Part shown: positions 21,383 through 24,920 of the stretch, piece by piece
Layout: each line of letters begins with the position of its first letter
How positions within the stretch are numbered: position 1 is the first letter of the stretch
The notes under the pieces: model-generated
What the model was told of the DNA's origin: nothing
Databases searched by the model: none
What the model saw: the letters and a program-made list of their open reading frames with translations, nothing else
NCBI RefSeq assembly: GCF_022869805.1
Contig: NZ_CP094974.1
Location: 1,984,001-2,048,000 of the forward strand
Reading direction: 5' to 3'
DNA length: 64,000 bases
Source of the DNA: Halosolutus halophilus
Lineage (GTDB): Archaea > Halobacteriota > Halobacteria > Halobacteriales > Natrialbaceae
Made by a program: the position numbers and the translations under genes

Positions 21383-22033
21383 TTACACGCCTTGCCGCTC
21401 GACGGTGACGTAGCCGTCGCCGTCCAGAATCGCTTCGACCCGCCCGTGCCAGGCCTCGGCGAAGGCAGCCCGTTCGTCCGCGGTCGCGTCGCCCTCGATC
21501 AGCGCCGGCAGGTGCTGTGTAGCGGGGCCAGCGTCCGGGATCTTCGACGTGTCGTACGTCACGCGGACCGTCTCGTCCGTGTCAGTTCGCGTGAACTCGA
21601 ACGCGATTCCGTCGACGCCGATTGCGCCGAACCGCAGCAGGTCTTTGCGTCCGCCGTGGCCGCCGGCCAGCCCGGCGAAGCCGTCCTCGCCCGCGGCACC
21701 CGTAATGTACGAGATCAGTCGCGACGTGACGCCGTAACTCGGATCGTCCCGCGGCCCGCCCGCGAGAACGGCAACGTCCCCGCGAACCGGGAGTTCGTCG
21801 CCGGGGTACAGTGCGTCGAGTCCGGCCTGGGCGATGCGGTAGGCCCCTGCCGCCGTCGGACAGGAGTGGCCCGCCGCTTTCACGACGTCCTCGTACGTGA
21901 CGACGATCGGGTCACCCGGGTCGACGACGGCCAGCGCCTCGGCAACGGGGTCGCGCAGCCGGATCGGTTCGACGTCCTCGTAGCTAACGTTCCAGTTCGT
22001 GGTCGTGCGGTCGGTTTCGGTGGTGTCGTTCAT
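21383..22033 (-). CDS. FmdE-like domain protein in a metal-transport operon
   Basis: A 216-residue cytoplasmic protein. The segment AAGHSCPTAAGAYRIAQAGL matches the GH-x-CP start of FmdE-like domains (first described next to formylmethanofuran dehydrogenase), and AGGHGGRKDLLRFGAIGVDG plus a terminal FEFT strand parallel the GC-x-GKG-L and F-F region of that fold. The zinc-ribbon tail of true FmdE is absent and Cys is scarce, so only GHSC is a likely metal site. It lies 32 bases downstream of the P-type ATPase in the same direction, implying a metal or cofactor role. Assignment rests on pattern only. Confidence 0.5.
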   Translation of the reverse strand: MNDTTETDRTTTNWNVSYEDVEPIRLRDPVAEALAVVDPGDPIVVTYEDVVKAAGHSCPTAAGAYRIAQAGLDALYPGDELPVRGDVAVLAGGPRDDPSYGVTSRLISYITGAAGEDGFAGLAGGHGGRKDLLRFGAIGVDGIAFEFTRTDTDETVRVTYDTSKIPDAGPATQHLPALIEGDATADERAAFAEAWHGRVEAILDGDGYVTVERQGV

Positions 22034-22065
22034 TGTCGTGTCCTCTGGGTCGGATCGATCAGTCG

Positions 22066-23967
22066 TCAGTACCGTAGCAGTCGCATCCCGTTCAGGATGA
22101 CCAGTAGCACGCTCCCGATGTGGACGAGCATACCGCTGGCCATGTGGACGTAGCCGGCGAAGACGCCGGCGAGCAGCAGGACGACCGTCGCGACGGCGAT
22201 CGCGACGTTCTCCGTGACGTTCCAGCGGGTCGCCTTGCTGAGCGAGACGGCGTACGGGATGCGTTCCAGGTCGTCTGCCATCAGCGCCATGTCGGCCGTC
22301 TCGATCGCCGTGTCGGTTCCGGCGGCACCCATCGCGATCCCGACGTCCGCGGTAGCCAGCGAGGGCGCGTCGTTGATGCCGTCGCCGACCATCGCGACGA
22401 CGTGTCCCTCTTCCTGGAACGACTCGATCGCGTCCTGTTTCTCCTCGGGCAGCAGGGCCGCCCGGTAGTCGTCGATGCCGATCGTCTCGGCGACCGCGCG
22501 TGCGGTGCGTTCGTTGTCCCCCGTGAGCATCACCGTGCGGACGCCGGCGTCTTTCAGCGCTCTCACGACGTCCGCCGCGGCGGAACGGAGTTCGTCCCGG
22601 AGCGAGACGACGCCGACGACGTTACCGTCGAGGACGACGTGGACCGCCGTCTGGCCGGCCTCCTCGCGCTCGCGGACGTGGTCAGCAACTCGCGTCGGAA
22701 CCTCGATCCCGCGCTCCGCGAGGAGCGCGCGGTTGCCGACGACGATCCGGCGATCGACGTACTGGGCGACGACCCCTTTCCCGGCAACGACCTCGAACGC
22801 GTCGGGATCGGGGATCTGCGGGCGCTCGACGACCGTTCCCCCGTCGGTCAGGTGGGCCGCGCTGGTGCCGCCGCCTTCGCCCCGAGCGGCCTCGAGGATC
22901 GCGTCCGCGAGGTGGTGTTCGCTCTTCTTCTCGGCGATCGCCGCGTAGCGAAGCACCTCGTCGGATTCGACGCCGAACCCCTCGACGGATGCGACGGCCG
23001 TTTCGCCCTTCGTCAGGGTCCCCGTCTTGTCGAACGCGACGAGGTCGATCTTGCCCGCGGTCTCGAGGTGCTCTCCACCCTTCATCAGGACGCCCGATCG
23101 CGCCGCATTGCCGATGGCGCTCACGATGCTGACCGGGGGTCCGATGACCAGCGCGCCGGGACAGCCGATGACGAGCAGCGTCAGCGCCACGATCGCGTCC
23201 CCGGTGTACGCGTACGTTCCGGCCGCAAGCACGACGATCGCGGGCGTGTAGTACCTCGCGAACCGCTCGATGATCGTCTCCGTCGGCGCTTTCGCCTCCT
23301 GGGCCTCCTCGACCCGACGGATGATCCGCTCGAGCGTCGTGTCTGCGCCGGTGCCGGTCGCGACGACCTCGAGCGCGCCCTCCTGGTTGATCGTGCCGGC
23401 GTAGACCTCGTCGCCCGCCGACTTGTGGACGGGAGCGCTCTCGCCGGTGACGGGGGCCTGGTCGATCGCGCTTTCACCCTCGGTGACCTCGCCGTCGACG
23501 GGGACCTTCGCCCCGGGCTTGACGACGACGGTTTCCCCGGGTTCGACCTCGCGTGCCGAGACCTCGACGTCTTCCCCATTACGGCGGACGATGGCCGTGT
23601 CCGGGGTCATCTCGAGCAACTCCTCGAGAGCGGATCGGGTCTTGCCCATCGTCCGCGCTTCGAGGTAGTTCCCGAGCGAGAACAGGAAGACGACGGCTGC
23701 TGCCTCCCAGTACTCGCCGATGACGATCGCGCCGATCGCGGCCAGCGTGACGAGGGAATTGATCCCGACAGTACCGCTTCGGAGGGTGTAGTAGGCCTTT
23801 TTCGCGACGTCGTAGCCGCCGACGATCGACGCGAGGATCATCAGCGCGGCGCTTATCTGGTCCAGGTCGTGGAAGTAGCCGAGGCCCCAGCCGATCGCGA
23901 AGAGCAGGCCACTGGCGGCGACGACGACCGGTTTGCGGTGTTTTCGGACGTATCTCTTGAGATTCAC
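22066..23967 (-). CDS. P1B-type heavy-metal ATPase with altered CPx and HP motifs
   Basis: A 633-residue membrane ATPase expected to move a transition-metal ion. Seen: actuator PVTGESAPVHK, transmembrane metal motif VIGCPGALVIGPPVS, phosphorylation site VAFDKTGTLTKGE, VMLTGDNERTARAVAETIG and VGDGINDAPSLA. The metal motif reads CPG instead of CPC/SPC, and the nucleotide-domain HP dipeptide region reads SEHHLADAIL instead of SEHPL. The protein has no N-terminal metal-binding domain; that domain is a separate gene six bases upstream. Specificity cannot be read safely from this; Zn/Cd or another soft metal is possible. Confidence 0.9.
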   Translation of the reverse strand: MNLKRYVRKHRKPVVVAASGLLFAIGWGLGYFHDLDQISAALMILASIVGGYDVAKKAYYTLRSGTVGINSLVTLAAIGAIVIGEYWEAAAVVFLFSLGNYLEARTMGKTRSALEELLEMTPDTAIVRRNGEDVEVSAREVEPGETVVVKPGAKVPVDGEVTEGESAIDQAPVTGESAPVHKSAGDEVYAGTINQEGALEVVATGTGADTTLERIIRRVEEAQEAKAPTETIIERFARYYTPAIVVLAAGTYAYTGDAIVALTLLVIGCPGALVIGPPVSIVSAIGNAARSGVLMKGGEHLETAGKIDLVAFDKTGTLTKGETAVASVEGFGVESDEVLRYAAIAEKKSEHHLADAILEAARGEGGGTSAAHLTDGGTVVERPQIPDPDAFEVVAGKGVVAQYVDRRIVVGNRALLAERGIEVPTRVADHVREREEAGQTAVHVVLDGNVVGVVSLRDELRSAAADVVRALKDAGVRTVMLTGDNERTARAVAETIGIDDYRAALLPEEKQDAIESFQEEGHVVAMVGDGINDAPSLATADVGIAMGAAGTDTAIETADMALMADDLERIPYAVSLSKATRWNVTENVAIAVATVVLLLAGVFAGYVHMASGMLVHIGSVLLVILNGMRLLRY

Positions 23968-23973
23968 GTCCGA

Positions 23974-24189
23974 TCACCTGGGCTGTGGGGTGTACCCCTG
24001 GTTCGAGATCGTTCGTTCGAAGGCGTCGGGATCGACGGTATCCTCGTCGTACTCGATCTCGACGCGGCCGGTCGTGTAGTGGACCTCGACGCGCTCGACG
24101 CCGTCGGTCCTCGAAAGCGATCGTTCGACGTTGCTCGCACACGTCGGGCAGTCGAAGTCGGTTACGCGGTATTCAGTGATCTGGGTCAT
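23974..24189 (-). CDS. Stand-alone HMA metal-binding domain protein
   Basis: A 71-residue ferredoxin-like metal chaperone with the single CxxC site in YRVTDFDCPTCASNVERSL and the usual beta-alpha-beta continuation VERVEVHYTTGRVEIEYDED. The aspartate directly before the first cysteine (DCxxC) is typical of Zn/Cd/Pb-type domains rather than the GMTCxxC copper type; that is a family rule, not proof. Its stop is six bases before the ATPase start, so together they reconstitute the usual fused HMA-ATPase as two chains. The start ATG at 24187-24189 suits the TATA box at 24222. Confidence 0.92.
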   Translation of the reverse strand: MTQITEYRVTDFDCPTCASNVERSLSRTDGVERVEVHYTTGRVEIEYDEDTVDPDAFERTISNQGYTPQPR

Positions 24190-24221
24190 CGTTCTTCGAG
24201 TGTCCCTACGAAGCCCGCCCG

Positions 24222-24229
24222 TAAATATA
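24222..24229 (-). promoter_or_regulatory. TATA box of the HMA-ATPase-FmdE-like operon
   Basis: On the minus strand the sequence reads TATATTTA, 33-40 bases ahead of the HMA gene start. The gap to the divergent regulator at 24384 has its own plus-strand TATA-like ACTTATACG near 24348-24356, so the shared region is suited to control by the divergent regulator. Confidence 0.6.
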
Positions 24230-24383
24230 TCACTCAAATGACTTGTTTGTGTTCGCCGACGCGTGCTTCCACCGGTGAAACGACTCGTCTAGGGGGTGAT
24301 CGTGAGTCGATCGAGCCACCGTGGCAAACCGGCCGCCAGCCTGCACGACTTATACGGGTCGCTCACCTAGCCACTGTCAACCG

Positions 24384-24920
24384 ATGGCCGAATTCACGTC
24401 GGACGTCACGGTCGAAGACATCGCGGTCAGGGATACGAACGTCTCGAGCGCCGTCGACGAACCCGTCCGGGCGATGATCCTCGACATGCTCGCGGAAGCC
24501 GAACTCTCCGTGGCCGATATCGACGCGGAACTCGCCGGGCGAGGATACGATCGGACGCGCAACACGGTGCGCCACCACGTCAACGAACTCCGGGACGCGG
24601 GCCTCGTCGAGGTCGCACGACTCGAGGAACGCAACGGCGGCACGACGAAGTACTATCGTGCGAACACGATCGTCCTCTCGTACGCGCTTCCCGCGGGCAG
24701 CCAGGAGGATCTCGACGCGATGGCCCACGAGATCGCGCCCGAAATCGCGGACCTCGTGGGATCCCTCGAGTCGGAGTACGGGGAGACGATCGATCGGATC
24801 GTCGGCGAGATGGCACCCTGTGAACACTGTCGCAACCAGAAGTACAGGACCTACCTGCTGTCGACCGTCCTCCGACGGGCGTTCGTGGAGGGCGTCGTCC
24901 GACGTGACGACGGAGAGTAG
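24384..24920 (+). CDS. ArsR-like winged-helix regulator divergent from the metal operon
   Basis: A 178-residue predicted metalloregulator. The winged helix spans about residues 20-95 (EPVRAMILDMLAEAELSVAD, then RTRNTVRHHVNELRDAGLVE as recognition helix, and the wing GTTKYYRANTIVL). The C-terminal part is helical and carries APCEHCRNQKYRTYLL, a CxxC pair suited to metal or FeS sensing. It is transcribed away from the HMA-ATPase-FmdE-like operon, the classic arrangement for its regulator. The start ATG follows a TATA-like element by about 30 bases; homology does not extend to the upstream in-frame ATG at 24321. Confidence 0.85.
   Translation: MAEFTSDVTVEDIAVRDTNVSSAVDEPVRAMILDMLAEAELSVADIDAELAGRGYDRTRNTVRHHVNELRDAGLVEVARLEERNGGTTKYYRANTIVLSYALPAGSQEDLDAMAHEIAPEIADLVGSLESEYGETIDRIVGEMAPCEHCRNQKYRTYLLSTVLRRAFVEGVVRRDDGE

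Follow-up and report, generated by a model that had tools for sequence, protein, structure and literature searches.

What does a heavy-metal pump carry when its membrane motif matches none of the familiar classes, and what part is played by the FmdE-like protein encoded directly behind it? Both questions are raised by a four-gene locus of the haloarchaeon Halosolutus halophilus, whose genome is 5.06 Mb in one contig. The locus lies at positions 21383-24920 of the window (the whole 64,000-nucleotide stretch of DNA that we analyzed) and encodes a P1B-type ATPase, a stand-alone HMA metal-binding protein, an FmdE-like protein, and a divergent regulator. The HMA, ATPase, and FmdE-like genes follow in this order as one operon, with gaps of 6 and 32 bases. 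An earlier note on this DNA had described the same arrangement, and its coordinates were borne out exactly. Judged from its motifs and phylogeny, the ATPase is a genuine P1B pump that belongs to a separate subclass and fits no class that we compared (P1B-1, P1B-2, and P1B-4). In haloarchaea, the FmdE-like protein is its near-obligate partner. Together, the genes quite probably form a metal-inducible efflux cassette, with the HMA protein in place of the pump's N-terminal domain.

The ATPase gene (22066-23967, minus strand, GTG start) encodes 633 residues, which we characterized by Pfam, NCBIfam, a motif map, and a tree. Pfam gives E1-E2_ATPase and Hydrolase domains and no HMA domain, in agreement with the earlier view that the pump has no metal-binding domain of its own. 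The best NCBIfam model is TIGR01525 (567 bits, nearly full length), the cadmium model TIGR01512 is second, and the copper model scores lower. The P1B core is intact, with DKTGT (D313KTGT), TGES, GDGxND, and a CPx-type M4. The specificity of P1B pumps is read from their membrane motifs, and the Cu-type ligands are N-Y in M5 and M-S-S in M6. The ATPase carries E88 in M2, C269-P-G in M4 (the CPG noted before, present as LVIGCPGALVIGPP), and M613-x-x-H616-x-x-S619 in M6; across 73 CPG sequences, C269, M613, H616, S619, and E88 are retained in more than 95%. No second M4 Cys and no Cu-type N-Y or M-S-S ligands were seen in the motif map of the CPG pumps. The M5 Lys and M6 Asp of P1B-2 are also absent, with V/T and His instead. 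In the alignment to sCoaT, C269 corresponds to S325, E88 to E120, H616 to H657, and H351 to H408.

In a tree of 41 rows, in which some branches are long and reference pumps are few, all CPG pumps form one clade (support 99/94). This clade is sister to a group containing P1B-2 and P1B-4 and stands apart from the Cu pumps with full support. The approximately unbiased (AU) test rejects a single clade of CPG and P1B-4 pumps (p 0.0034). P1B-4 membership was discarded, as CPG and HIGSV stand against SPC and HEGxT and only the His is common, along with the E in most relatives. P1B-1 membership was likewise discarded, since the pumps lie outside the Cu clade and lack CPC, N-Y, and M-S-S. Nor is CPG a private substitution within a Zn or Cu clade, which the earlier note had named as the outcome that would speak against a distinct class. 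Of 391 haloarchaeal genomes, 88 carry the motif, at 104 sites in total, and the CPG pumps placed in the tree, bacterial ones included, form one clade.

P1B-2 membership deserves closer attention, because the module could be a variant exporter of Zn(II)/Cd(II)/Pb(II), its CPC having changed to CPG with no change of substrate. The second rank of TIGR01512 agrees with this, as do the DCPTC site of the HMA protein, which resembles the DCPSC sites of a Zn-type pump of the same genome (L079), and the cadA- and merA-like genes that adjoin the CPG pump in some bacteria. However, one clade with P1B-2 is rejected (AU p 0.0039), CPC is lacking along with the M5 Lys and M6 Asp, and the genome already has its own P1B-2 pump. 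We therefore consider this explanation unlikely and reject membership in P1B-2 itself. A named CPG class was not found in the literature; the 2014 classification defining P1B-6 and P1B-7 was not compared, so a catalogue entry may exist. Secondary sources describe these two classes by their substrates. A P1B ATPase of Dehalococcoidaceae (L076, 5572-7734), whose M4 reads CSC and whose M6 reads NEGG, is likewise non-standard.

One feature that had been taken as a mark of the class did not hold up. The nucleotide-binding motif of the ATPase reads SEHHLA, and the earlier note described it as a lost HP pair. The conserved His is in fact retained (H351, aligned with H408 of sCoaT), and only the Pro is changed. 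The Pro-to-His change is found in all haloarchaeal members examined and, within the CPG clade, is limited to haloarchaea. Bacterial members of the clade have SEHP or SDHP, and SEHH or SEHHIA also occurs in nearby SPC-type pumps; thus the loss of HP is no class mark.

The surroundings of the pump were surveyed in two independent ways. A scan of genome contigs, which started from peptides of the window protein and therefore leans to close relatives, gave 75 loci, nearly all haloarchaeal. The order of divergent regulator, HMA, ATPase, and FmdE-like genes is retained at almost all of them, and every haloarchaeal copy with a readable motif has CPG and SEHH. The class-wide counts come instead from 391 genomes drawn evenly from the class, in which CPG was searched as a DNA pattern and the profile of the FmdE-like protein matched strongly 105 times. 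In 100 of the 104 cases, the CPG site is directly followed by an FmdE-like gene of the same orientation, which lies 1.1-1.9 kb away from the motif. Three of the four remaining sites look like contig breaks: the contig stops inside the pump (G336), the gene opens the next contig (G205), or a fragment lies on another contig (G196). Halobiforma nitratireducens (L061, L116) is a true exception, with a CPG pump and no FmdE-like gene. The cassette organization is real and far beyond chance, because dozens of genomes share this order. The FmdE-like gene thus belongs to the module, as the earlier note had supposed, and its co-occurrence elsewhere removes the objection that the note itself had foreseen.

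Strong FmdE-like genes without a pump are few, and some of them stand in decayed cassettes. One such cassette retains the regulator and the FmdE-like gene and has no pump (L112, 6741-7845); another has the FmdE-like gene and a C-terminal part of the pump left (L115, 7776-9403). Outside Halobacteria in the same phylum, the CPG motif was found in one of about 200 genomes (G524). There, an HMA gene comes after the CPG pump, and an FmdE-like gene is missing (L125, 5184-7288). This Firmicutes-like form was possibly acquired from bacteria.

The FmdE-like core-domain protein of the window (21383-22033, minus strand, 216 residues) was examined by Pfam and fold search. Its match to PF02663 is marginal (24.1 bits, with the cut-off at 22.9), only 11 of the 34 orthologues reach E 0.001 in Pfam, and a sequence search against the PDB gave no match. 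An AlphaFold2 model (predicted local distance difference test, pLDDT, 84.5) was more informative. With this model, Foldseek returned only FmdE-family structures (2glz, 2gvi, and 3d00) at E below 0.001, as the top four matches with modest template modelling (TM) scores of 0.38-0.58, and the predicted structure thereby confirms the FmdE fold. The GHSCP motif and the lack of a zinc ribbon reported earlier both hold; the motif is GH56-S-C58-P and its Cys is the only one in the protein. In solved FmdE structures, the core metal site consists of His-x-His-x-Cys and a further Cys (PMC2954224). The first His is Ala in 33 of the 34 orthologues (A54-x-H56-x-C58), and 33 of them have a single Cys. Since the first His and the second Cys are missing, the known metal site is half lost, with two of four ligands remaining. 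H56, C58, and H196 (33 of 34) are invariant or nearly so.

This half-lost site and single invariant Cys raise the alternative that the FmdE-like protein is a sulfur- or thiol-transfer partner rather than a metal handler, in a module that copes with metal-thiol or persulfide damage. An FmdE-like paralogue, 46-51% identical, is paired with the sulfur carrier TusA at four loci (L109, 6629-7594; L110, 6844-7798; L111, 6216-7082; L113, 6462-7485). At L111 it is fused to TusA, with NosL just upstream. The paralogue may belong to a haloarchaeal sulfur-handling system, and its place beside or within TusA keeps a sulfur-relay role for the FmdE-like protein possible. The persulfide genes cstRAB also adjoin one bacterial CPG pump. 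On the other hand, the pump module itself showed no TusA gene, the FmdE-like gene is strictly coupled to a metal pump, and H196 could complete a metal site with H56 and C58. As an account of the whole module, we regard the sulfur explanation as fairly unlikely.

The HMA protein (23974-24192, minus strand, ATG start, 72 residues) is CopZ-like. It matches PF00403 at 48.7 bits and has the CxxC in an FDCPTCA site, so that the DCxxC site described before is present as DCPTC. Its gene is conserved beside CPG pumps in both haloarchaea and bacteria. The divergent regulator (24384-24920, plus strand, ATG start, 178 residues) has an HTH_20/ArsR-like winged helix by Pfam, and its score for the NCBIfam metalloregulator model is under the cut-off. 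The predicted fold is closest to the ArsR homologue 1uly/2cwe, in a modest model (predicted template modelling score, pTM, 0.50). The Cys-containing motif expected in the regulator is present as CEHC near the C-terminus (C146-x-H148-C149), and its C146, H148, and C149 are invariant. The regulator may be a metal-responsive repressor.

The intergenic region has a TATA-like box about 30 nucleotides ahead of each start codon and two conserved blocks, located by intergenic alignment. The first block, CAAACAAGTCATTTGAGTGATATATTTA (24222-24249, minus strand), is a promoter/operator block that ends in a TATA box about 33 nucleotides before the HMA start, and the HMA-side transcript would be leaderless. 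The second, CTAGACGAGTCGTTTCACCGG (24272-24292, minus strand), and the first are both candidate operators. On the regulator side, the TATA-like box ACTTATAC (24348-24355, plus strand) lies about 30 nucleotides before the start, and its minus-strand form GTATAAGT is conserved in close relatives. Only weak palindromes are found in this region of the window.

From these parts, a mechanism for the efflux cassette can be proposed. The ArsR-like regulator would sense the metal, probably by its C-terminal Cys-x-His-Cys, and control the divergent operon. The HMA protein, which by analogy with its family would be the N-terminal metal-binding domain of the pump encoded as a separate gene, may bind cytoplasmic metal via CPTC and pass it to the pump. 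The membrane site is likely formed by C269 of the M4 CPG with Met613 and His616 of M6. In sCoaT, the M6 His between the SPC residues is a built-in counter-ion and E120 is a release residue (PMC8880997). By their mapped positions, His616 may be the corresponding counter-ion and Glu88 in M2 may lie on the exit path. The FmdE-like protein would act through His56 and Cys58 and most likely relay metal or thiol/sulfur, or serve as an adaptor for the substrate; this is the weakest step of the scheme. A maturation system, which the earlier note had offered beside a distinct exporter, is not indicated, and export is the simpler explanation.

The bacterial relatives, whose breadth is drawn from plasmid records only, bear on the substrate. 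They are 42-53% identical, carry CPG, and have a separate HMA gene whose site is SCPSC, TCPSC, or similar. The combination of a CPG pump and a separate HMA gene thus spans two domains of life. CPG, the separate HMA gene, and M6 GM-x-x-H were found in Lactobacillales, Listeria, Staphylococcus, Actinomycetota, and alphaproteobacteria; 451 plasmid records strongly match the E. faecium pump, with the motif read in a handful. Each of the annotated CPG loci that we inspected on plasmids of Firmicutes has a Dps or ferritin-like gene, usually with Crp/Fnr too. Such a gene lies beside the pump in E. faecium, L. paracasei, Listeria, Leuconostoc, L. salivarius, and S. equorum, with a weak case in L. lactis. 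FetB or VIT1/CCC1 is found at the Listeria and Leuconostoc loci, and the published gene table of pLM58 has the same order, FetAB-Dps-Fnr-HMA-ATPase. A literature search on the lactococcal Fnr-like proteins FlpA and FlpB as zinc-linked context gave nothing usable. Among the haloarchaea, the FmdE-like gene of Halolamina pelagica is immediately followed by a tandem of three ferritin-like (Dps) genes (L018, 8827-10477). The iron-related neighbors in Firmicutes and Halolamina favor Fe(II) or iron-linked oxidative stress.

We consider a divalent first-row metal the most likely substrate on these comparisons and tentatively rank Fe(II) first. Zn/Cd comes second as a rather unlikely candidate, and Cu(I) is third and improbable. 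Several observations weigh against Fe(II). Its gene context is strong only in Firmicutes and was seen at one haloarchaeal locus, and the actinobacterial and alphaproteobacterial neighbors indicate Cu or Hg no less than Fe. The HMA protein gives both a Zn/Cd-type hint, as an Asp before CxxC like its own is linked to metal specificity in ZntA-type pumps, and a Cu-type hint, as its best NCBIfam score is to the CopZ model. Some copies lie near anaerobic-respiration genes, namely NorB (nitric oxide reductase), NirK-like, and ApbE genes.

The last two observations also agree with a Cu(I) pump, or a Cu loader for respiratory cupro-enzymes like YvgX of H. salinarum with its chaperone VNG0702H or CopA2/FixI, linked to anaerobic respiration. 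The Cu P1-ATPase of H. salinarum works with separate HMA chaperones, the bacterial loci have Fnr regulators, and CueP or CopB is near the pump in some bacteria. Nevertheless, the missing Cu-type ligands and the position outside the Cu clade argue against Cu, and the genome has CopA-, CPH-, and CopA2-type pumps, making this explanation a poor one. About ten other heavy-metal P-type ATPases, above the family cut-off or joined from pieces, are encoded in the H. halophilus genome, and CopA, CPH, CopA2, and Zn types are among those read. Because separate Cu- and Zn-type pumps are present, the CPG pump is probably not simply a Cu or Zn exporter, and its redundancy with them is unlikely.

The cassette is often plasmid-borne in haloarchaea. 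On pNG600 of Haloarcula marismortui (L087, 1-12003), it sits in a 10-12 kb segment with an ArsP-type permease with a YHS domain, an amidohydrolase, and an integrase-like gene. Segments of this type are also found in Halobaculum, Halobellus, Halobacterium hubeiense, Halosegnis, Halorussus, and Halorhabdus records. They are about 99-99.9% identical between genera and families and have therefore moved recently. The right edge, about 147 bases past the integrase gene, is the dyad TGGTCGTGATTAC...GTAATCAGGACCA, beyond which several copies diverge; this sequence is likely a recombination site. In four haloarchaea, a P1B-4-like pump with SPC and HEGST adjoins the CPG cassette (L006, 8590-10803; L022, 8589-10802; L053, 9244-11463; L055, 8595-10361), and three read copies of such pumps also have SEHH.

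Compared with known systems, the CPG pump resembles P1B-4 (sCoaT and CtpD), to which its nearest solved structure (7qbz) belongs, in the lack of an N-terminal metal domain and in the M6 His and M2 Glu. It differs in CPG for SPC, in M-x-x-H-[IEQ]-x-S for HEGxT, and in its separate HMA partner. With P1B-2 (ZntA/CadA) it shares the P1B core and the first Cys of CPC, whereas Gly replaces the second Cys and the HMA domain is a separate gene. In the H. salinarum system, YvgX is likewise a P1-type pump of a haloarchaeon and has VNG0702H as its separate HMA chaperone, but it is a Cu pump under an Lrp/TRASH regulator, with no FmdE partner described. The Listeria/Enterococcus plasmid block (e.g., pLM58) has the CPG ATPase and the separate HMA gene in the records read, with Dps/Fnr in place of FmdE and the ArsR-like regulator, and SDHP in place of SEHH. 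The FmdE-like protein shares with PF02663 (2glz, 2gvi, and 3d00) the fold, the GHxCP motif, and a place beside metal-ion transporters, but has Ala for the first His and lacks the second-strand Cys and the zinc finger.

It is possible, though doubtful, that the CPG pumps constitute a functionally new P1B subclass, one that combines a Cys/Met/His membrane site with an external HMA domain and serves only Fe(II) or an ion outside P1B-1, -2, and -4, and that the FmdE-fold protein is an obligate part of the haloarchaeal export machine. The CPG pumps make up a whole clade with a motif outside the classes compared, for which we found no assigned ion, and they are carried on many haloarchaeal plasmids and on plasmids of food and gut bacteria. 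That most FmdE-family genes adjoin metal-ion transporters was already noted in 2010 (PMC2954224). The fixed pairing of the pump with the FmdE-like protein gives a handle on the role of FmdE-fold proteins beside metal transporters, a question that dates from those structures.

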